Shown here piece after piece: positions 1 to 39,810 of a stretch of DNA of 39,810 nucleotides. Positions within the stretch are counted from its first letter, which is position 1, and every line of letters begins with the position of its first letter. Below the pieces are notes generated by a model that was not told the origin of the DNA, searched no databases, and was given only the letters and a program-made list of their open reading frames with translations. The position numbers and the translations under genes were made by a program. This DNA comes from Salinibacter pepae (lineage in GTDB: Bacteria > Bacteroidota > Rhodothermia > Rhodothermales > Salinibacteraceae), in NCBI RefSeq assembly GCF_947077775.1, contig NZ_CAMTTE010000002.1, positions 1 through 39,810 of the forward strand. The letters run 5' to 3'.

Positions 1-1119
1 GTCTTGGTACTGGCCCGGAGGTGTGCTCAGATCCTCGTCGACCGCCTTCCAAAGTTCCTCTGGGAGCCCGTCACGGATGATCTGCCGCGTGTGCTGGCCC
101 ACCACCCAGGTGTTGGAGTGCTCCGTGCTCGGAAGCCGATCCTTGACGTACTGGAGAACGCCCTTCCCGCTTTGGAATCGGTAGTGGCCGATCCAGTGGA
201 GGATCTTGTGGTGGATGACGCGCCGGTGTGTGGTCTGGTCGGTCCACGTCGTCCACAGGGCGTACACGCACCAACGAAAGAGCACTGGGTCCTCCTCTGC
301 TTCCGGCACGTACTGGTAGATCATCTGCCGGGTCGCGTACTCGCATGTGCGCCGTGCAAGCGCCCTGCGGACCAACACTGGGATGCTGACATTGCCAGCA
401 CCCTCTGAACCCGGCATGTCCATTTTTTTACACGCCGGAGTGTCGTGATAGCACATTTTGGCTTCCAACAAACTAAGCGTCTTCGATTCCGCTAAGCTGT
501 TGGGAAGCCTACACTTACAAGAACGGGTATCGTTACTATCTACAACACCTACACCCTGTATACCCCGGGAGCCTTGCAGGAAACGTGATGACCCAAGGCA
601 ACACCGGTCCATAATCCCGCTTCTATCCCTACCTCCGCCGGAGCCCTCGCCCCGCTTCCCTCCACCACCTCCTGCTGCCCTGGCCGATGCCTCGGCCTCC
701 ACCAGGGCATCCGTAAGCTCCCGCCGAGTCTCCGCTCCGGCTGCCGCTTCCGCCGCGGAGCTGTAGTCGATACCGAGGCCCTCGCAGAGATCCACCGCGT
801 CGATCTCAACCTCGCCTACGCGGACATGCGTTTTCGCCCGTTGGACCTGACCTTTATTCCGATCATAGCTTGTCTCGAAGCCGAGCACAGCCGGAACGGA
901 GTTCTCCTCTTTCCACTCGATGGTTTCCGCCGCGCTGGAAAGCGTTACCGCCTTCTTGTAGAGGCGCCCACGAGCGCCCACACGTCTTCCAAGCACGAGA
1001 CACATCTTGATCCACGCCGCCTCGGCCGTGCCGTCTGGACGGTTCTCAGCGATAGTGAAAAGTCGCTCAGCAAGCTCCTCCTCGGTGGGAACTGTTTCCG
1101 CTATGTCAGTACAAGTCAT
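1..1119 (-). CDS. PolA-like replication polymerase, N-terminal part (frame open across window edge)
   Basis: The minus-strand frame is open from an ATG at 1119 down to base 1 with no stop, so the gene leaves the window. Its last codon ends exactly on base 1, and the open frame at 37930..39810 starts with a whole codon on base 39810; joined they encode 999 residues. Three parts are visible. Residues 1-165 are acidic, mostly helical and end in a Gly-rich stretch. Residues 166-233 (about bases 420-625) have poorer third-position GC and no clear protein character. From Met233 (ATG at 423, after an A-run typical of Bacteroidota starts) the sequence leads smoothly into the polymerase. Translation could begin at 423, leaving 1119-625 as a separate gene or a fused domain. 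I do not recognise the first 165 residues. The catalytic motifs lie in the other half. Confidence 0.7.
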   Translation of the reverse strand, partial: MTCTDIAETVPTEEELAERLFTIAENRPDGTAEAAWIKMCLVLGRRVGARGRLYKKAVTLSSAAETIEWKEENSVPAVLGFETSYDRNKGQVQRAKTHVRVGEVEIDAVDLCEGLGIDYSSAAEAAAGAETRRELTDALVEAEASARAAGGGGGKRGEGSGGGRDRSGIMDRCCLGSSRFLQGSRGIQGVGVVDSNDTRSCKCRLPNSLAESKTLSLLEAKMCYHDTPACKKMDMPGSEGAGNVSIPVLVRRALARRTCEYATRQMIYQYVPEAEEDPVLFRWCVYALWTTWTDQTTHRRVIHHKILHWIGHYRFQSGKGVLQYVKDRLPSTEHSNTWVVGQHTRQIIRDGLPEELWKAVDEDLSTPPGQYQD

Positions 1120-13298: not shown

Positions 13299-13535
13299 TC
13301 AGAACAGGCTCTCCTCGCGGCTCAGCTGGTCGAGGTCCTCGCCAGCCCGATCGGAGCCGGTCGGCCCGTCGGGCCCGGAGCACCGCGGGCAGTCGACCCA
13401 GCCGCTTCCTCCACACTCCGGGCAAGCCTGGAACTGAGTCTCCCCACCGGGCCCGGTGGTTTTCTTCTCGCCGGCTCCCTCGCACTCATCGCACGCAATT
13501 TGCCTGTGTCCGCTACACTTCGGGCAATGCCGCAT
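13299..13535 (-). CDS. Small DnaJ-type zinc-finger protein
   Basis: A 78-residue protein with four CxxCxG-type knuckles: CPKCSGH, CDECEGAGE, CPECGGSGW and CPRCSGP. This is the layout of the DnaJ cysteine-rich domain, which folds two zinc sites and binds unfolded protein or partners. Here it stands without J-domain or substrate-binding domain; the rest is a short acidic tail (DRAGEDLDQLSREESLF). Such stand-alone proteins are often thiol or zinc chaperone-like or adaptors. The start at ATG 13535 begins directly with the first knuckle. Codon use matches the host. Confidence 0.8.
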   Translation of the reverse strand: MRHCPKCSGHRQIACDECEGAGEKKTTGPGGETQFQACPECGGSGWVDCPRCSGPDGPTGSDRAGEDLDQLSREESLF

Positions 13536-30257: not shown

Positions 30258-33200
30258 CTATTCTTTTTCCACCTCGACCTCCTCTCGGACCCGGTCGAAG
30301 AGAAGGTCAAACAGCATCTCCCCGAAGGCCTCATCGTCGGTGATCTTCTTGTAGAGGCGGAAGTTCTTGTCGATCATCCCTTGGAGCTCAGTCTCCGCGA
30401 CCTCGTCGAACGTGAGGCGGGCATCGTTGGCGCTGTTGACCTCGATGCTCTTTTTGATCGCGTCGCGGTCCCGGACGTTTTCCTTCAGGCGCTCGATGAA
30501 GACCCGGTCGTCTTCGTCGAAATCGTAGTTGTCGAACCGCTCGTTGAGCAGCTCGATGATTTTTGAGAGCGGCTCTGGCTCCGGCTCGCCCGGGCCGGAG
30601 GTTCCTGCCGTCTCCTTTTGAGGCGGCAGTGGCTCGGAGCCGCGCTCCAAGTCGATGCCCTCCTCGCTGGTTTTCTGGATTCGGATCGACTCCAGGTCGA
30701 CGTACTGTGTCAGCTCGCTGGGCACGTCGCTGGGTTCAAGCAGGGCCAAGAGCTTCGACAAGAGAGGCCGGGCCAGCGTGTAGAGCTTCTCCAGCTCCAC
30801 GTCCTCGAAGGAGACTACCTGCGCGAGAAACGAGTAGAGGCGAACAAACTTGCCCACCTGCCGGCGAAACTCCGTCTGCTCCTCCTCGGAGGCGTCTTTG
30901 TAGCGCTCGACGCACGTGTCAAGCCGGCTGTGAATCTCAGATTGGGTGCTGCCCGGGTCGTGCCAGATCTCTGCAAACGCGCCCAAGTCCGCGTCCTTGA
31001 CGATCCCGTAGGAGCGGATCTGGTTTTCCAGGTCGTAGAGCAGGCTCGGGTCGGTGCCTTCACTTAGGGTCGTCTTCTCGTAGTAGGGCTCGAAGGCCTC
31101 CTCGATCTTCTCCCTGTCGTTTTCGAAGTCTAAAACCATCGTTTCCTCCTTCCCCGGATGGGTCCGGTTGAGGCGGGAGAGCGTCTGCACCGCGTTTACG
31201 CCGCCGAGCTTCTTATCCACGTACATCGTGTGGAGAAGCGGCTCGTCGAAGCCGGTCTGAAACTTGTTGGCGACGACGAGGAACCGGTATCCCTCCTGCC
31301 GAAATTTGCGGGCCGTTTGGCTGGTCGGGATGCCTCCGTTCATGGAGCGCTCGGTATGCTCAATGCCCCGGTCCTCAACGGTCCCGGAGAAAGCGACGAG
31401 CGCTTCATATGGGTAGTTCTGCTCATCTAGGTATCGGTCGAGGGCCTGCTTAAACCGCACGGCGTGGAGCCGAGAACGAGTGGCAATCATGGCCTTGGCC
31501 TTCCCGCCGATCCGGCCCGAGACGTTTTGCTCGAAGTGCTCGGCCATGATCTCCACCTTCTGCGCGATGGTGTGCTCGTGGGCGCTCACGTAGGACTCAA
31601 GCAGGCGGGTCGCCTTCGAGGCGTCGTACTCCGGGTCCTCCTCGATCTGCTTGTGGAGACGGAAGTAGTCGTCGTACGTGGTGTAGTTTTCGAGCACGTC
31701 GAGAATGAAACCCTCCTCGATCGCCTGCCGCATCGTGTACAGGTCAAACGGCTCGTGGGAACCGCCGGGCTGCTCCTCGCCGAAAAGCTCTAAGGTTTTT
31801 GGCTTCGGGGTGGCGGTAAACGCGAAGTTGCTCACGTTCGGCTGGCGGCCTCGCTTGCGCACCTCCTCTCGGATCCGGTCTTCGGTGTCAACGTCCACGT
31901 CGTCTTCCTCCTCGGCGTCTTTTAAGCTGGAGGCAGAAAGCGTGTCGTTCAGGTGCTTTCGGTACTCGCCGGTCTGGGAGCTGTGGGCCTCGTCGATGAT
32001 GACCGCGAAGTTCTCCCCGCCCCGCTCCCGAATCGCATCAGCGACGTGAGGAAAGGTCTGGAGCGTGACGACAACGATCTGCTTTCCGCTTCTCAGGGCC
32101 TCCTCCAGCCCGGCGGCGCCCTCTTCGATGTCGGCCACCACGCCCCGCTCCTGCTCGAATTGGAGGATGATCTGCGCGATTTGCTTGTCCAGCACGCGCC
32201 GGTCGGTGACGACAATCACCGTATCGAAGACCGACCGGTCCGCCTCGTCGTGGAGGAAGGCAAGCTGGTGGGCAAGGACGGCGATAGAGATGCTTTTCCC
32301 GCTCCCCGCCGAATGCTGGACGAGGTAACGCTGGCCTGGGCCGTCCTCCCGCGCATCTTCCACCAGGCGTCGAACCGACCGCATCTGGTGGTAGCGCGGG
32401 AAGATCAGGGTCTCCTCACCGGTCGGATTTCCGTCCTCGTCGAGCTCCTCGATCTCGGCGATGAAGTGCTCCAACAGGTTGAGGACGCTGTCCGGCGCCC
32501 ACACCTGCTCCCAGAGGTAAGCAGTGCGGTATCCCCTCGCCTTCGGCGGGTTGCCCTTGCCGCCATCGTAGCCCTTGTTAAAGGGAAGAAAGCTCGTGTC
32601 GTCTCCTTCTAGCCGGGTGGTCATGTAGGCCTCATCGCTCCCGACGGCAAAGTGGGCCAGGCACCGCTTAAACGCGAAGAGCGGCTCCGACGGGTCGCGG
32701 TCCGACCGGTACTGGTGGATCGCGTCGCGGTAGTTTTGGTCCTTGAGCGGCTCTTTGAGCTCGGCGGTAAAGAGAGGAAGGCCGTTGAGGAAAAGCGCAA
32801 GGTCGAGGGACTCCCTCGTGTCTTGGCTGTAGTAGAGCTGGCGGACGGCGCTGAAGACGTTGGCCCGGTACTTCTCTTGGAGGTCCGGGTTGCGGCTCGT
32901 GGTGGGCTTGAAGTAGACGAGTTTGAACCGGCACCCGTAGAGCTTCACCTCATCTCGGAGGACCGAAAGCGTGCCCTCTTCCTCAATTCGAGACGAGACG
33001 CGACCTAAGAGCTCTTCCCGGGCGTCTTCGCCAAACTGGTCCCGCAGGTCAGCCCACTCCCTGGGCTGGGTGGCGGCGATAAACTCGATCAGGTCATCTG
33101 GCAATAGGCATCGCCGGGCGTCATAGTCGCCGCTGGAGCGGCGCTCGTACCCGCCCGGGGCGAACGACTGCGCCTCGTGCTCGACCGATGCCTCGGCGGC

Positions 33201-33275
33201 CTGAGCCCCTGACTCGGCGGTGAGCGTCTCTTCGATGATGGACTCGAAGTTCTTTTCGGAGGTGCCAGTTGGCAT
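30258..33275 (-). CDS. hsdR: Type I restriction enzyme, R (motor/nuclease) subunit
   Basis: A 1005-residue HsdR of normal length. The N-terminal nuclease domain shows the PD-(D/E)xK pattern in SLDLALFLNGLPLFTAELK (Asp158, Glu172, Lys174). The SF2 translocase follows: Walker A in HSAGSGKSIS (321-330), motif II IIDEAHSS (DEAH 428-431), motif III FTATPKP (486-492), and motif VI QTLSRLNRT (697-705). A helical C-terminal part (about 830-1005) should dock on the methyltransferase. The enzyme translocates DNA from unmethylated target sites using ATP and cleaves far away. It lies 57 bp downstream of hsdS and is transcribed with it. All key residues are present, so activity is expected. Confidence 0.96.
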   Translation of the reverse strand: MPTGTSEKNFESIIEETLTAESGAQAAEASVEHEAQSFAPGGYERRSSGDYDARRCLLPDDLIEFIAATQPREWADLRDQFGEDAREELLGRVSSRIEEEGTLSVLRDEVKLYGCRFKLVYFKPTTSRNPDLQEKYRANVFSAVRQLYYSQDTRESLDLALFLNGLPLFTAELKEPLKDQNYRDAIHQYRSDRDPSEPLFAFKRCLAHFAVGSDEAYMTTRLEGDDTSFLPFNKGYDGGKGNPPKARGYRTAYLWEQVWAPDSVLNLLEHFIAEIEELDEDGNPTGEETLIFPRYHQMRSVRRLVEDAREDGPGQRYLVQHSAGSGKSISIAVLAHQLAFLHDEADRSVFDTVIVVTDRRVLDKQIAQIILQFEQERGVVADIEEGAAGLEEALRSGKQIVVVTLQTFPHVADAIRERGGENFAVIIDEAHSSQTGEYRKHLNDTLSASSLKDAEEEDDVDVDTEDRIREEVRKRGRQPNVSNFAFTATPKPKTLELFGEEQPGGSHEPFDLYTMRQAIEEGFILDVLENYTTYDDYFRLHKQIEEDPEYDASKATRLLESYVSAHEHTIAQKVEIMAEHFEQNVSGRIGGKAKAMIATRSRLHAVRFKQALDRYLDEQNYPYEALVAFSGTVEDRGIEHTERSMNGGIPTSQTARKFRQEGYRFLVVANKFQTGFDEPLLHTMYVDKKLGGVNAVQTLSRLNRTHPGKEETMVLDFENDREKIEEAFEPYYEKTTLSEGTDPSLLYDLENQIRSYGIVKDADLGAFAEIWHDPGSTQSEIHSRLDTCVERYKDASEEEQTEFRRQVGKFVRLYSFLAQVVSFEDVELEKLYTLARPLLSKLLALLEPSDVPSELTQYVDLESIRIQKTSEEGIDLERGSEPLPPQKETAGTSGPGEPEPEPLSKIIELLNERFDNYDFDEDDRVFIERLKENVRDRDAIKKSIEVNSANDARLTFDEVAETELQGMIDKNFRLYKKITDDEAFGEMLFDLLFDRVREEVEVEKE

Positions 33276-33332
33276 GACAATGGTTCGCCTGCATGGAGGT
33301 GAACTGGTTCGAGTAGGCGACTTGCCTGTGGT

Positions 33333-34748
33333 CTATTCGGCCGGCGCCACGGCAACCTCTTCACGAACATCAATCTTGCCGGTCACTGCCGCCGAGATGA
33401 GTGCGGTGCGGTATTCCTTCAATCGGTCAATTCCTTCCTCCATGGTTGAGATTTGCTCATCCAGCCTTCCAGCCTCGCTATTAAGGTATTTCACCAACTG
33501 TTCCTGCTCATCCGTTGGTGGAAGGGCCACTATTAGATTCTCGATGGTGTTCGTATTCAAACCGCTGAGTACAGCACCTCTCTGCACCAAAGCGATTTTC
33601 GTTTGCATGTACCATGCCTCGTGGAGCAACCACTGCAGGAAGTGACGGTCAATCTTCTCCCATCTGAGCCGAAGCCTGATAGTGTCAGAGTCTATGATGC
33701 CACTTTGAATCCCCTTTGGGACGATCCGGCTATTTCCAATACTGCCTTTGCGAGTAAGAACTAAGTCCTCTGGTTGAAGCTCATATCGATCAGCCATTTC
33801 GTGGAATCGTTCTTCAGACAACCACCTATGACCTGCTTTAAATTCGCCAGATATTATATTTTCTTGTCCATAAACCTTATATCCGGTGTCCCGAGATTCG
33901 AGTCCTTTGAGCATAGATCCGTAGGGACCCATTTGGATACCGTCCTCCGGCGCAGTCGCCAAGTGCTTTAAACGAACAGTTTTCCATTGCGCCGGAATCT
34001 CTCCCAGCCACTCCACGCCGCTGTCCTGCATCTCCACGTCACTGTCGAGTCCCTTCGTGACGACGCGGCTGATGAGGGCCGTGCGCTTCTCCTCCAGCAG
34101 GTCGATGAGCTCTTCCTTCTTCTCGATGAGCGCGTCGATGCGCCCCGTCTCGCGGTCGAGGAACGTGGCGATGGCGTCCTGTTCGGGTGGGGATGGAACA
34201 GGCCACCGGAGGTTCTCGACAAAATCGTTGGAGACACGCTTTTGGCCACCAGCCCCATACATGGTAGACTCACCGATCTTCCTAAAGGGGTGTGACATCG
34301 TCACGTAGTACAAGAATCTTTCGTCCAGATCCGGCCCCGGACGCAAGACGTGGAGTTCTGTGGTGCCAAATCCGATCCCGTTCGTGAGATCGGAAGCAAG
34401 TGCACCCTTCCGGTTTTCAAAGCAGGGTGTGATCTTCGCCACCAGCACATCTCCATCGCGAAAATATGTGTATCCGTCTATCACCTCCTCAATCTCTTTC
34501 GTCTCACCGAGATCGAGTCCGCCATTTTCTTTGACGGACTCCATAGGGACGAAGGACACCTCTGTGGTGTCTGGGAGGTCACGGACCTCAGTTTTGGACG
34601 GTGAGGTCTCCAGTAGAAATCGGAAACGGGCTGTTTCCCAGTGAGCTGGTGCCTCATCAAGCCATTCTACTTCTGGATCTTCGTACTCGTCGTACTGCGG
34701 GCGAGCACTGGTCAGGTCCAGCGTATCTCCAGGTTCGGTCACGCTCAT
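33333..34748 (-). CDS. hsdS: Type I restriction-modification specificity subunit
   Basis: A 471-residue HsdS with the usual two halves. Each half has a target-recognition domain (about residues 25-185 and 245-405) followed by a conserved helix: SPPEQDAIATFLDRETGRID, then EKKEELIDLLEEKRTALIS, and PPTDEQEQLVKYLNSEAGRL, then EGIDRLKEYRTALISAAVTG. Both halves start with the EWL(D/G)E-x-P motif, showing the internal duplication. Each domain reads one half of a bipartite DNA site. The second recognition domain (about 33540-33980) is distinctly more AT-rich than the rest of the gene, a sign that it was swapped in by recombination. The order M-S-R with short gaps (111 and 57 bp) indicates one operon. 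Confidence 0.95.
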   Translation of the reverse strand: MSVTEPGDTLDLTSARPQYDEYEDPEVEWLDEAPAHWETARFRFLLETSPSKTEVRDLPDTTEVSFVPMESVKENGGLDLGETKEIEEVIDGYTYFRDGDVLVAKITPCFENRKGALASDLTNGIGFGTTELHVLRPGPDLDERFLYYVTMSHPFRKIGESTMYGAGGQKRVSNDFVENLRWPVPSPPEQDAIATFLDRETGRIDALIEKKEELIDLLEEKRTALISRVVTKGLDSDVEMQDSGVEWLGEIPAQWKTVRLKHLATAPEDGIQMGPYGSMLKGLESRDTGYKVYGQENIISGEFKAGHRWLSEERFHEMADRYELQPEDLVLTRKGSIGNSRIVPKGIQSGIIDSDTIRLRLRWEKIDRHFLQWLLHEAWYMQTKIALVQRGAVLSGLNTNTIENLIVALPPTDEQEQLVKYLNSEAGRLDEQISTMEEGIDRLKEYRTALISAAVTGKIDVREEVAVAPAE

Positions 34749-34859
34749 TGTCGGATCGTTGCTTAGAAGAGCTGAAAGCCGAGGTCACGGAGCTGAAGAC
34801 GTGCAGATCCGGTCTCACCGCTGGTGCGTCTCAGTCGGTCACGCAGCGGGAAACGCCGA

Positions 34860-36866
34860 TCATGCTGTCACCTCCTCCATCATGTCGACGATGTCGCGCT
34901 GCACCTCCTGGAGGTCCTCCTCGATTTCGCCCAGCGGGCGTGGCGGGTCGTACTCGTAGAAGTAGCGGTTGAAGTTAATCTCGTAGCCGACCCGGCCGAC
35001 CTTCCCGTCCTGCTCGTCGGTGTAGTCCTCGTCGATGAACGCGTCTTCGACGTGGGGCTTCACCTCCCGCTCGAAGTACTCCTCGACGTCCTCCTTCAGC
35101 GGCACGCGCTCGTAATCTCGGAGGTCGGTGTCAGACATCAGCCGGTCTTTCGTGTCGCGGGCGGGCTCCGCGTCCGGGTCCTTCTCGGAAAGTGCCTCTA
35201 TGATGTCGGTCCGCTTTTTCTTGCGGATGGAGATGCCTCGGGCGTCGAGCTCGCTTTTTAGATGCGAGCGGAAGTCCGCGTAGTCGTAGTGCGTTTGGTC
35301 TTCCATATCACGCAGCATCGTCACGACCTGCTCCTGCACCTCCTCGTCGAGGCGTCCGAAGTAGCGCTTGTCCCACACGTTTTCGATTCGCTCCTCCGAG
35401 GGGCGAAGGTTCACTCGAAGTGGCCGCTCGACGCGGATCCTGCGGTAGCCAAAGTCCTCGGTGTCGAAGATCTGTACCCGGCCCTCTTCCTCCCCATTTT
35501 CCTGGTAGTACTCGAACGAGTCGTAGAGCCGCACGATCTCCCCAATCTGCTCCTCAGAGAGGTAGCGGCGCTTATCGCCGAGGCTCTTCCGCATCTCCGT
35601 CCAGAGACCGGACGCGTCGATCAGCTGCACCTTGCCGCGGCGCTTGGGCGTTTTGATATTGGAGACGACCCAGACGTAGGTCGAAATGCCGGTGTTGTAG
35701 AAAAGCTGCTCGGGAAGCTGGATGATCGCCTCCACCCAGTCGTTCTCCATGAGCCAGCGGCGGATTTCACTCTCCCCGCTCCCGGCGCCGCCGGTGAAGA
35801 GAGGCGACCCGTTCATGATGATGCAGGCGCGTCCTCCACCGTCTGGCACCGGCTTCAGGTGCGAAACCATGTGCTGGAGGAAGAGAAGCTGCCCGTCGGA
35901 CTTCCGAGGCGTCCCTGGTTCGAAGCGGCCAGCGGCGCCGCGCTCCGCCTCGCTTTCGACCTCCTTCTTGTCGCTTTTCCAGTCCTTGCCGTACGGCGGG
36001 TTTGCCAGCTGAAAGTCAAACTGCTCGTCTCGATGGGCATCGCCTGAAAGCGTGGAGCCGAGTTCGACATTGTCTGCGTCCCGGCCCTCCTCTGTTTTCA
36101 TGTAGAGGTCCGACTTGCAGATTGCCCACGTCTGCGGGTTGACCTCTTGGCCGAACAGGTGGACCTGGGCGCCCTCGTTTTCGCCCCGAATCTCATCGCG
36201 GGCCGCCGTGAGCATCCCGCCGGTGCCGCAGCACGGGTCGCAGATCTTAAACACCTTCCCCGGCTGGCCGAGCGGCTTCTTTTCGCTGTCGAGCACAAGC
36301 TTGGTCATAAGCCGCACGACCTCCCGAGGCGTGAAGTGCTCCCCAGGGTTCTCGTCAAGGGCCTCGTTGAACTTGCGGATGAGCTCCTCAAAGATGAGCC
36401 CCATCTGCTCGTTGGTGATGTCGTCGGGATGCAGGTCCACGCTTGTAAACCGCTCGACCACCTGGTAGAGCAGGCCTGCGTCATCGAGCCGACGGATCGT
36501 GTTGCGGAACTCAAACTTCTCGATCACCTCCCGCATGTTCGGCGAGAAGCCCGCGATGTAAGTGTTTAGGTTATCCTGAAGCGGGCCGGGACCCTCCTGC
36601 AGAAGCCGCTCGAAGGTATAGCGGGACGTGTTGTAGAACGCCTGCCCGGCCTTCTCCCGAAGCAAGCTGTCCATGTTGTCCAGCTCGCCCTTGTACTTCT
36701 GGTACGCCTCCAAGACCTCATCCTTTGTCGGCTTCAGCACGCTGTCGATGCGCCTGAGCACCGTAAACGGCAGGATCACGTCCTGGTAGCGGCCCCGCTT
36801 GAAGTCGTCGCGGATGAGGTTGGCCGTGTCCCAGAGGAAGTTGACGACGTCGCTGTGGGTTTCCAT
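34860..36866 (-). CDS. hsdM: Type I restriction-modification methyltransferase subunit
   Basis: A 668-residue N6-adenine methyltransferase. The helical N-terminal domain (1-150) is followed by the catalytic domain: GEHFTPREVVRLM (175-187), SAM-binding motif I ICDPCCGTGGML (208-219; most HsdM have DPACGTGG) and catalytic motif IV ANPPYGKDW (288-296). The segment GGRACIIMNGSPLFTGGAGS carries motif VIII-like features. The C-terminal 250 residues hold an acidic helical extension (FRSHLKSELDARGISIRKKK), longer than in E. coli HsdM (529 residues) but usual in one HsdM subfamily. With two HsdM per HsdS it protects host DNA; with HsdR it restricts. First gene of the hsd operon, 98 bp behind the RHH gene. 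Confidence 0.95.
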   Translation of the reverse strand: METHSDVVNFLWDTANLIRDDFKRGRYQDVILPFTVLRRIDSVLKPTKDEVLEAYQKYKGELDNMDSLLREKAGQAFYNTSRYTFERLLQEGPGPLQDNLNTYIAGFSPNMREVIEKFEFRNTIRRLDDAGLLYQVVERFTSVDLHPDDITNEQMGLIFEELIRKFNEALDENPGEHFTPREVVRLMTKLVLDSEKKPLGQPGKVFKICDPCCGTGGMLTAARDEIRGENEGAQVHLFGQEVNPQTWAICKSDLYMKTEEGRDADNVELGSTLSGDAHRDEQFDFQLANPPYGKDWKSDKKEVESEAERGAAGRFEPGTPRKSDGQLLFLQHMVSHLKPVPDGGGRACIIMNGSPLFTGGAGSGESEIRRWLMENDWVEAIIQLPEQLFYNTGISTYVWVVSNIKTPKRRGKVQLIDASGLWTEMRKSLGDKRRYLSEEQIGEIVRLYDSFEYYQENGEEEGRVQIFDTEDFGYRRIRVERPLRVNLRPSEERIENVWDKRYFGRLDEEVQEQVVTMLRDMEDQTHYDYADFRSHLKSELDARGISIRKKKRTDIIEALSEKDPDAEPARDTKDRLMSDTDLRDYERVPLKEDVEEYFEREVKPHVEDAFIDEDYTDEQDGKVGRVGYEINFNRYFYEYDPPRPLGEIEEDLQEVQRDIVDMMEEVTA

Positions 36867-37929: not shown

Positions 37930-39810
37930 CTACGGCGTTTCCATCCCACGCTTCCACTCTCTTGCCGAGAAGCCCGCGTCCTTGGCTCTTTCCCAATTGT
38001 CAGGCACATTGCCCTGCGCGATTCGGCGCTTTCGCTCTTGATGCTGGCGGTGGAGATCCTCGACTGTGAGCGCGTCGCTCTTTTTGTCGCTACGAGACAC
38101 AGGCTGCGCACCTGTGGTGGACGTATCCGAGGCGGGTGATCTGTCTTCCCTCATTGAGCGGCTTTCCGCACCAGGCGCAGTCTTGGACGTGTCCACCGGG
38201 CTTGACGTGTCCGGGCTTGTTGTCTCCGCTGTCGGATCGGCCGGTGGTGGCGTCTTTGGGCTCGTCGTCCTGCTTGAGCTCGTTGAAGATGTCGAGTTGG
38301 TCGTCGTTGTGTCGTTCCATAGTTTGGCCTCAGGGTATGGGTCAGTGGTTGTAGTGTATCCGTCGTCGGTGACTTGAATGTAGGTATCAGCGACGCGGTA
38401 GAGCTCGTGCTCGTGGGCGAGAAGAATGGGACTGGCAGGTCCAGTCTCATCCGGGACAGGCATCTCCTCTCCGGTTTGAGGGTCGATCTTTACGGCCGTC
38501 TCTCCGTCTTTGAGCCGGACGGCGCCTCCGCTGGCGCTGGCAATGCGGTCGTGAACGTTTTCCGGCGGCATCTCCGGTGCCTCGATCTTCTCAACCTCAA
38601 AGATGGCCGGGAGGAGCGTGTCTTTCCCGGCAAACTCGGTCAGCTCCTCCTGCTTGGCCGTGAGCGCCTCGTTGACCGCCTTCTCCAGCCCATCCGGGCG
38701 GCGGGCGGCACACTCCGCGCCGTCGTGCAGCCACAGGACCGGCCGAAACCCTGTTCGCTCCTCCGCCACGCCGATGAGCACGCTCATCAGCTCCTGCTCG
38801 TAGCTTTGGGCGTGGGTTGCCATCGCGCTTCGCGGCCCGACCTTGTTGCAGTCGTCTTCCTTCTCCCGCTGGAGGGTGACCTCCACCTCGATCTCGATGC
38901 CGCTGGGCGCCTCCAGCGTGTCGCCCGGCTCCAGGGCCTGGAGCTTCTCGTCTCGGGCATCGATAAGCTGCTGGATGACCGGGTGAGTCTTCAGGTGATC
39001 TCCTACGTCCGGTCCCAAGATCGGCTTCAGCGCCTTCGTCACGTTTGCCTGGATGGAGGGTGCGGGCATTCCGTAGACGGTCGAGTAGAGCATGATCTTC
39101 ATCCCGGCCTTCACCTCCTCGTAGAGACCGGAGCCCTTCTCCGGAACCTCCAGGCCCTGCTCCTCGAAAAGTGGGCGGCAGTGCTCCATGAGGTCGTCCC
39201 AGATGGAGTATCCCTCTTGCGTAAGTGTTTCCAAGGCCTCCTCAGCGTCCCACAGCCACGCTGCAATCAGCAGGTGGGCCGACTTTAGGTCCACGTCATA
39301 GAGCCCCTCACAGAGGATCTCTCGGACTTCTGTGGGCAGGCGCAGGACCGATGGGTTGTGCCCGAAAATACGGTCGGTGCGCTCCTGCCTGGAGAAGCCG
39401 TAGTACGGTTTGTGCTGGAGGGCAATCTGGTGGAGGATCTGCTTGTACTGGGCCCGCTGCTGGTGGGCGAGTTTCCGCTTCTCGTGGCGGAGCCTGGCCT
39501 TGTAGCGAGTCACGTCGCCCTTGAGCTCTCCGTCGTCGGTTTTTTCGCACCCGCTGTAGTATCGCAGGAGTCCCGCCTCCTTTGGAGAAACTTCCACGTC
39601 GATCTCCATGCGGTCTACGTACTCAATCGCCTTTCCAATCTTGTCGTCGAAGCGAGCGAAGCGTCTGGACGGGACCTCGTTCATGTAGTTCCAGATCCGC
39701 TCGGCCATATCGGAAGGCGGCTGTAGCTCGAAAATCTCCTCCTCAATCTCCGCCCGGATGTCGCTTGCGTCCTGCCGGCCGACAGGATCGCCAGACAGGA
39801 CATAAACGCG
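37930..39810 (-). CDS. PolA-like (family A type) DNA polymerase, catalytic part; frame open at the window edge
   Basis: The minus-strand frame is open from base 39810 to the stop at 37930 (626 residues) and continues in frame into 1..1119 if the molecule is circular (999 residues, numbers below). Family A motifs appear in order. Motif A is LYDVDLKSAHLLIAA (Asp545, Asp547). Motif B is K611IMLYSTVYG620, fitting K-x7-Y-G. A conserved segment RSAMATHAQSYEQELM lies at about 701-716, and motif C is LWLHDGAE (His735, Asp736). The spacing from motif A to C, 191 residues, is close to that of Taq or T7 polymerase. No 3'-5' exonuclease motifs are visible. A Thr/Ser/Pro-rich tail contains a second gene in another frame, then a basic helical end (VEDLHRQHQERKRRIAQGN). 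It probably replicates or primes the plasmid; the divergent sequence leaves substrate and priming open. Confidence 0.75.
   Translation of the reverse strand, partial: RVYVLSGDPVGRQDASDIRAEIEEEIFELQPPSDMAERIWNYMNEVPSRRFARFDDKIGKAIEYVDRMEIDVEVSPKEAGLLRYYSGCEKTDDGELKGDVTRYKARLRHEKRKLAHQQRAQYKQILHQIALQHKPYYGFSRQERTDRIFGHNPSVLRLPTEVREILCEGLYDVDLKSAHLLIAAWLWDAEEALETLTQEGYSIWDDLMEHCRPLFEEQGLEVPEKGSGLYEEVKAGMKIMLYSTVYGMPAPSIQANVTKALKPILGPDVGDHLKTHPVIQQLIDARDEKLQALEPGDTLEAPSGIEIEVEVTLQREKEDDCNKVGPRSAMATHAQSYEQELMSVLIGVAEERTGFRPVLWLHDGAECAARRPDGLEKAVNEALTAKQEELTEFAGKDTLLPAIFEVEKIEAPEMPPENVHDRIASASGGAVRLKDGETAVKIDPQTGEEMPVPDETGPASPILLAHEHELYRVADTYIQVTDDGYTTTTDPYPEAKLWNDTTTTNSTSSTSSSRTTSPKTPPPADPTAETTSPDTSSPVDTSKTAPGAESRSMREDRSPASDTSTTGAQPVSRSDKKSDALTVEDLHRQHQERKRRIAQGNVPDNWERAKDAGFSAREWKRGMETP
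38090..38320 (-). CDS. Nested small zinc-finger ORF overlapping the polymerase tail
   Basis: A 76-residue frame lies wholly inside the polymerase tail in a different frame on the same strand (ATG 38320 to TAG 38090). Its third codon positions are far more GC-rich than those of the polymerase frame over the same bases, where the translation is low-complexity Thr/Ser/Pro. It begins MERHNDDQLDIFNELKQDDE, which includes QLDIF, close to the sliding-clamp-binding consensus QL(S/D)LF. It ends with CAWCGKPL ... HHRCAACVS, a C-x2-C-x19-C-x2-C arrangement that should bind zinc. Both the composition and motifs indicate real coding. It may be a separate small protein, or be reached by a frameshift from the polymerase. 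Function unknown. Confidence 0.65.
   Translation of the reverse strand: MERHNDDQLDIFNELKQDDEPKDATTGRSDSGDNKPGHVKPGGHVQDCAWCGKPLNEGRQITRLGYVHHRCAACVS

Follow-up and report, generated by a model that had tools for sequence, protein, structure and literature searches.

A candidate zinc-finger gene with a clamp-binding-like motif nested in the polymerase-like gene of a Salinibacter plasmid

The nested ORF and the gene around it

We analyzed a DNA stretch of 39,810 nucleotides from Salinibacter pepae (assembly GCF_947077775.1, contig NZ_CAMTTE010000002.1, positions 1-39,810 of the forward strand), hereafter referred to as the window. The contig is most likely a circular plasmid, because homology to the polymerase of a related plasmid runs across the contig junction. 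A 76-aa ORF at 38090-38320 (minus strand), extending from ATG to TAG, lies wholly within a polymerase-like ORF (37930-39810, minus) and is read in another frame of the same strand, at phase +2 (-1) relative to the polymerase frame. A matching arrangement, contained in the same way and in the same phase, is found in a second species of the same genus (genome G008, locus L006), where a homologous polymerase gene carries a 71-aa ORF at the same place. The relative's contig is publicly available as JAHENZ010000173.1 and is assigned to a metagenome-assembled Salinivenus sp.; this host name is only as reliable as its bin, because bins can be wrong. The features of the window considered here, all on the minus strand, are as follows:

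1..1119, 5' part of the polymerase-like ORF, assigned by homology to the relative's polymerase across the contig junction
37930..39810, polymerase-like ORF, 626 aa in the window, continuing over the contig ends to 999 aa in total (ORF list, relative)
38317..38577, approximate C-terminal extension of the polymerase, conserved in both plasmids and ending at the start of the nested ORF (alignment)
38330..38332, TGA closing the nested frame four codons upstream of its ATG, kept in the relative
38328..38331, GAGG, 7 bases before the nested ATG, kept in the relative; possible ribosome-binding site
38090..38320, nested ORF, 76 aa, ATG to TAG (ORF list, relative, resampling)
38276..38299, QLDIFNEL, residues 8-15, clamp-binding-like motif QLxIF (QLTIFDEL in the relative; consensus QLxLF in the available part of PMC4549789)
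38254..38260, CCCAAAG heptamer in the polymerase frame, absent from the relative (X-XXY-YYZ scan)
38099..38179, C-x2-C-x19-C-x2-C putative zinc finger, C48, C51, C71, C74 (spacing x20 in the relative)
38159..38183, 25-base run identical in both plasmids, over DCAWCGKP; the longest found
38113..38131, 19-base run identical in both plasmids, over LGYVHH
37930..38089, polymerase tail past the nested stop, poorly conserved (11/50 aligned residues in the alignment with the relative)

An earlier note, made from the sequence of the window, had pointed out this ORF with its QLDIF near the N-terminus and its four-cysteine finger, inside a Thr/Ser/Pro-rich, low-complexity stretch of the polymerase frame at 38090-38320. 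The translations bear out this description: QLDIF occupies residues 8-12, the four cysteines are C48, C51, C71, and C74, and the polymerase frame over the nested ORF is rich in Thr, Ser, and Pro. The relative's 71-aa ORF consists of MATSDRGGRQLTIFDEL, a linker, and then DCAWCGKP and TRLGYVHHKCVAC; it keeps the ATG, the motif as QLTIF, and all four cysteines, which are thus conserved candidate metal ligands in both plasmids. The two small proteins are 44% identical, with the identity residing mostly in the motif and the finger. Across the six frames of the window, the finger pattern occurs 3 times, that of the nested ORF included; another C-x2-C...C-x2-C pattern among the three is CDECEGAGEKKTTGPGGETQFQACPEC at 13493 (minus).

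No fitting family was found for the nested protein in Pfam, NCBIfam, or PHROG, the resemblances to DUF6011 (E 0.22; 11.5 bits against a cut-off of 26.6), YdaE (E 0.055), and the DksA-like PHROG 54 (E 0.061) all being nonsignificant. Up to E 1, neither Pfam nor NCBIfam gave a match to an HNH homing endonuclease family, and one HNH-labelled PHROG gave a nonsignificant E of 0.19. The predicted structure of the nested protein is of low confidence (mean pLDDT 54.6) and has a short helix at residues 10-15.

The polymerase-like protein, which we take provisionally to be a divergent family A-like polymerase, belongs to a group with the motifs D..A, K..K..YG, and HDG that occurs in the order's genomes and also on a plasmid of Deinococcus (L009, L011-L015, and L035) and is nearly unrecognised by Pfam. 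Of 8 distant loci (L009-L015 and L035), 7 gave an ORF passing the motifs, and L010 was left out of the alignment. One D, two K, one G, and the HDG columns are invariant across the nine aligned proteins, and we presume that they correspond to polymerase motifs A, B, and C. Pfam DNA_pol_A matches one of the nine (E 0.0024), the window's protein not being matched, and a profile of the group found no polymerase among its matches to PDB sequences; the lone PDB match, a GTP pyrophosphokinase (E 0.024), was taken as chance. The predicted structure of the polymerase is poor (pLDDT 38.8). In all seven distant relatives, including the one on the Deinococcus plasmid, no more than about 70 residues follow the HDG motif, and the C-terminal extension at about 38317-38577 is lacking.

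At its other end, the 999-aa ORF has an N-terminal part (766-1080, minus) homologous to a separate 210-aa gene of the relative (L006:2763-3395; 36% identity over 106 aa, E 3e-18). That gene sits upstream of the relative's polymerase, and in the window the two are fused in one frame, with a junction that by eye appears poorly coding. Elsewhere in the window, type I restriction-modification genes (30258-36866, minus; HsdM, HsdS, and HsdR family matches) adjoin a ParA-like gene and a possible ribbon-helix-helix gene that is below the Pfam cut-off. Rfam returned no matches on the window at gathering scores.

Coding character and selection in the two frames

Read in the nested frame, the overlap in the window has a GC content by codon position of 0.64/0.42/0.78, resembling the polymerase core (0.68/0.39/0.79), and read in the polymerase frame it has 0.42/0.78/0.65, unlike the core; beyond 38090, the polymerase frame becomes coding-like again (0.65/0.44/0.69). 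Both the coding bias of the nested frame and the subsequent return of coding character to the polymerase frame had been proposed in the earlier note and hold in the window. In the relative's overlap, the GC signal is weak (nested frame 0.58/0.54/0.60, polymerase frame 0.54/0.60/0.58). The length of the ORF is by itself little evidence, as stop-free frames this long are not rare: among 890 windows taken from 11 real plasmid genes, 83 were stop-free for 72 codons in the corresponding frame. The finger is another matter, appearing in that frame in none of the 890. When the polymerase amino acids were held fixed and silent codons redrawn (20,000 draws per plasmid), an open nested frame together with a finger arose at a frequency of 0.0001 for the window and 0 for the relative; a QLx[ILMF][FL] string arose somewhere in 3-5% of the resamples.

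Over the portion preceding the overlap, the polymerase homologs of the two plasmids are 67% identical. The blastn match between the plasmids (67.7%; L006:3682-5694) has as its final base, in either plasmid, the third base of the nested stop codon; the polymerase stops lie well beyond, the frames continuing for another 52 and 76 codons in the two plasmids. Within the overlap, three conserved blocks, comprising 37 of 77 nested codons and chosen after the alignment had been seen, display a marked scarcity of silent change in either frame when compared with rates expected from the upstream polymerase. At identical residues of the polymerase frame, 4 of 24 codons differ, against 13.0 expected (P 1e-4), and in the nested frame 5 of 27 differ, against 12.3 (P 0.002). 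The 25- and 19-base identical runs both fall within the finger, and no identical run in the aligned polymerase gene upstream of the overlap exceeds 15 bases.

Over the whole overlap the signal is weaker and the frames are about equally identical (34/68 residues in the nested frame, 28/62 in the polymerase frame), because the linker has diverged in both. Silent change across the whole nested alignment is mildly reduced, with codons differing at 10 of 34 identical residues versus 188 of 418 in the upstream polymerase, and differences are spread flatly over the three nested codon positions (28, 22, and 29 of 68; upstream polymerase 194, 144, and 345 of 662).

In the converse resampling, the nested protein was fixed, its silent codons were redrawn, and draws with an open polymerase frame were kept. 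The tail of the window has a hydrophobic share of 0.053, against a resample mean of 0.161 (P 0.002), and that of the relative 0.029, against 0.202 (0 of 9,222 draws as low). When 902 real-gene windows were read in that frame, an open frame occurred in 72 and a hydrophobic share of 0.07 or less in 12, with no window combining both properties. The nested third bases, which are the second bases of the polymerase codons, contain little T and G: in the window, T 3 and G 14 of 76, and in the relative, T 1 and G 10 of 71, the same count for the upstream polymerase being T 120 and G 321 of 869 and T 99 and G 235 of 664, respectively. This composition accounts for the low-complexity tail described in the earlier note and gives one plasmid a tail rich in Ser, Thr, Pro, and Ala and the other a tail rich in Gln, Asn, and Glu.

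Every selection test relies on a single species pair, because only two members were found. With blocks chosen post hoc and whole-overlap counts that are weaker, the comparison suggests that both frames are probably under selection, as far as one pair can tell.

In the own genome, the small protein matched one real place, the second standing at E 1.04, and in 60 genomes (own included) the real matches were those in the own genome and G008. The small protein also matched in G031 and at another place in G008, apparently antisense to long ORFs in both cases; these matches were taken as chance. With a two-row profile, 16 matches passed E 0.1 in 114 genomes of the order (own included), and only those of the own genome and G008 fell below 0.001, the next best being 0.008. 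The polymerase query retrieved a single locus from GTDB contigs, which is the G008 record; viral contigs gave no match to either protein, the phage collection none at all, and the plasmid collection one distant Deinococcus polymerase and no small protein. In 394 sampled genomes of the phylum, the polymerase profile gave 4 matches at E <=1e-6 and no new close relative. A third member of the nested-ORF family was thus not found in the order genomes, the plasmid, phage, and viral collections, the GTDB contigs, or the phylum sample. Around the distant polymerase loci L009-L015, no ORF combining QLxxF with a finger was seen in the flanks; the finger pattern alone occurs in L012 (33-203) and L035 (4295-4510), in neither case at the polymerase ORF, and looks by eye unlike that of the nested ORF.

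Start of the nested ORF and alternative readings

Both plasmids have CTATGG at the nested start, where the ATG requires the Leu codon CTA in the polymerase frame, a codon rare among upstream Leu codons (2/73 and 3/62 in the two plasmids). The GAGG preceding the ATG is not independent evidence of a ribosome-binding site, because a conserved polymerase Glu codon falls on the same bases. Shine-Dalgarno-like sites were seen by eye at few of the 18 other ORF starts in the window. In the assembly, a longer pattern for the 16S 3' end had no match, and a shorter one matched three places, two of which were inspected and neither of which is 16S.

Could the nested ORF be a by-product of a low-complexity, C-rich tail, with the polymerase frame alone being translated? 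The commonness of stop-free frames of this length, the near-equal identity of the two frames over the overlap, and the polymerase-frame stretches TAPGAESRS and SDTSTT, which are also identical in both plasmids, would all be expected, but the silent sites of the polymerase frame are nearly frozen in the conserved blocks, resampling almost never yields a finger in an open frame, and the DNA match stops at the nested stop. We consider this explanation very unlikely. Slightly less probable still is that the 25- and 19-base runs are DNA-level sites within the polymerase gene, such as origin elements; complete DNA identity is what such sites would show, but both runs coincide with finger codons, and the nearby conserved Glu14, Thr62, Arg63, Cys74, and Ser76 differ at silent positions. 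A more serious contender, though improbable, is that the nested gene alone is functional and that the polymerase lost its stop near 38317, making the tail a neutral run-on. The conserved domain of the polymerase reaches just to the start of the nested ORF, the tail past the nested stop is poorly conserved, and the seven distant relatives end soon after the catalytic motif; against neutrality, the polymerase frame is open in both plasmids, the hydrophilicity of the overlap exceeds what the nested protein demands, and coding-like GC periodicity returns in the polymerase frame after the nested stop. The arrangement may nevertheless have arisen when the polymerase lost a stop that preceded an older small gene, which would fit the end of the conserved extension at the nested ORF's start.

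A programmed -1 frameshift fusing the polymerase to the finger, one of the options raised in the earlier note, is the least probable of the readings weighed here. The nested frame is indeed -1 relative to the polymerase, and CCCAAAG lies in phase 60 bases after the nested ATG, the upstream counts of in-phase X-XXY-YYZ heptamers being none for 865 codon positions of the window and one for 660 of the relative. The search for slippery sequences that the same note had called for nevertheless yielded one zero-frame heptamer in the window's overlap and none in the relative's, and hence none common to both plasmids; a shift at CCCAAAG would leave out QLDIF, the RNA downstream of it folds no better than shuffles (z -0.10), and the ATG and the TGA that closes the nested frame before it are conserved. 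A former gene now fused, also suggested there, fits poorly with two frames that both appear constrained, and the relative does the opposite of conserving only the polymerase frame: it keeps both frames, the start codon, the QLxIF motif, and the four cysteines, in support of the nested-gene option. The alternative that carries real weight, and which we regard as nearly as likely as a clamp adaptor, is that the nested gene is real and its product acts elsewhere, either as a small zinc-finger regulator (DNA- or RNA-binding, e.g., controlling polymerase expression or copy number) or through a QLxIFxEL helix docking on another partner. The four conserved cysteines with GYVHH suggest a folded finger, the low-confidence model places a short helix at residues 10-15, the DUF6011, YdaE, and DksA-like resemblances, weak and nonsignificant as they are, are to fingers, and the clamp motif is short and imperfect. 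Conversely, outside the finger, conservation is found mainly in this motif, which fits the clamp consensus at Q1, L2, and F5 and lies in a variable, probably disordered segment, as short clamp-type motifs usually do.

A possible link between a plasmid polymerase and the host clamp

Taken together, the evidence from the two plasmids leads us to regard the nested gene as very probably real, and translation and selection of the polymerase tail as likely. Binding of the small protein to the clamp is a more tentative proposal, somewhat below an even chance. The complete explanation, i.e., coding in two frames together with a clamp-recruiting small protein, we would call evenly balanced. According to this explanation, 231 bases would encode two proteins. 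The polymerase frame would provide a disordered, hydrophilic tail of the plasmid-borne DNA polymerase-like protein, and a separate start at the ATG at 38320 would give a 71- to 76-aa protein with an N-terminal QLxIFxEL, a variable linker, and a C-terminal four-cysteine finger. The N-terminal motif would dock in the host beta sliding clamp and the finger would bind DNA or the polymerase, so that the small protein would bring the host clamp to the plasmid's own polymerase, and nesting would keep both products on one message. We infer translation, zinc binding, clamp binding, and partnership with the polymerase; judging from the sequences, a small adaptor holding the host clamp beside the plasmid polymerase or DNA appears to be the likeliest role.

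The motif is QLDIF in the window and QLTIF in the relative, which differ from the beta-clamp consensus Q-L-x-L-F, as given in the available part of PMC4549789, by one conservative change, Ile in place of Leu at position 4. The host genome has a beta-clamp family gene. Host DnaE carries QNSLF, and two Y-family polymerases (two examined of four loci) end, by eye, in QLELNF and QLEFDF; in a second DnaE-like gene of the host, a narrower expression found no clamp motif. Among small clamp-binding proteins, YabA is comparable in its description, and its gene is, to our knowledge, not nested. YabA, from low-GC Gram-positive bacteria, is described in the accessible text of PMC4705661 as a small protein that binds the clamp DnaN and whose C-terminal domain binds zinc; it differs in having a helical N-terminal domain, in lacking the QLxLF consensus, and in regulating initiation via DnaA and DnaN. 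Certain transposases provide a precedent for mobile-element proteins that bind the host clamp by a short motif; as far as the available part of PMC4549789 goes, their QLxLF is almost always C-terminal, whereas that of the nested protein is N-terminal.

The general kind of arrangement is known. In the portion of PMC6139136 available, the Rz/Rz1 spanin genes of phage lambda comprise a small gene wholly inside a larger one, on the same strand and in the other frame, whose products form a complex, and loss of the upstream gene's stop codon is mentioned as a possible, more complex route to the embedding of spanin genes. The spanins are lysis proteins rather than replication proteins, and their inner product is Pro-rich, whereas here the outer frame is of low complexity and the inner one carries the finger. 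Similarly, a hidden HNH endonuclease gene (ShiLan domain) is an out-of-frame zinc-finger gene inside a phage methylase gene, around which the methylase frame stays open, according to the available part of PMC11855218; that gene is a homing insertion of 195 aa, whereas the present 71- to 76-aa ORF lies in a C-terminal tail and has no significant HNH match. No title or abstract returned by a literature search describes a gene nested in a plasmid polymerase, a result with little bearing beyond the papers covered. The nested gene is credible, shows signs of two-frame coding, and is new in this setting as far as our searches reached.

Few same-strand nested genes are well supported in bacteria and plasmids, and annotation easily misses them. 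The one considered here sits in the gene of a divergent polymerase-like group barely recognised by Pfam, and the host clamp is a testable partner for its product. That the plasmid polymerase gene carries a nested zinc-finger adaptor recruiting the host clamp, such that an enzyme and its processivity adaptor share bases and co-evolve, is possible but doubtful as a whole. If the clamp reading is true, the nesting would couple a plasmid's own polymerase to the replication machinery of the host in a compact manner, and the two-frame sequence signature could be searched for elsewhere.
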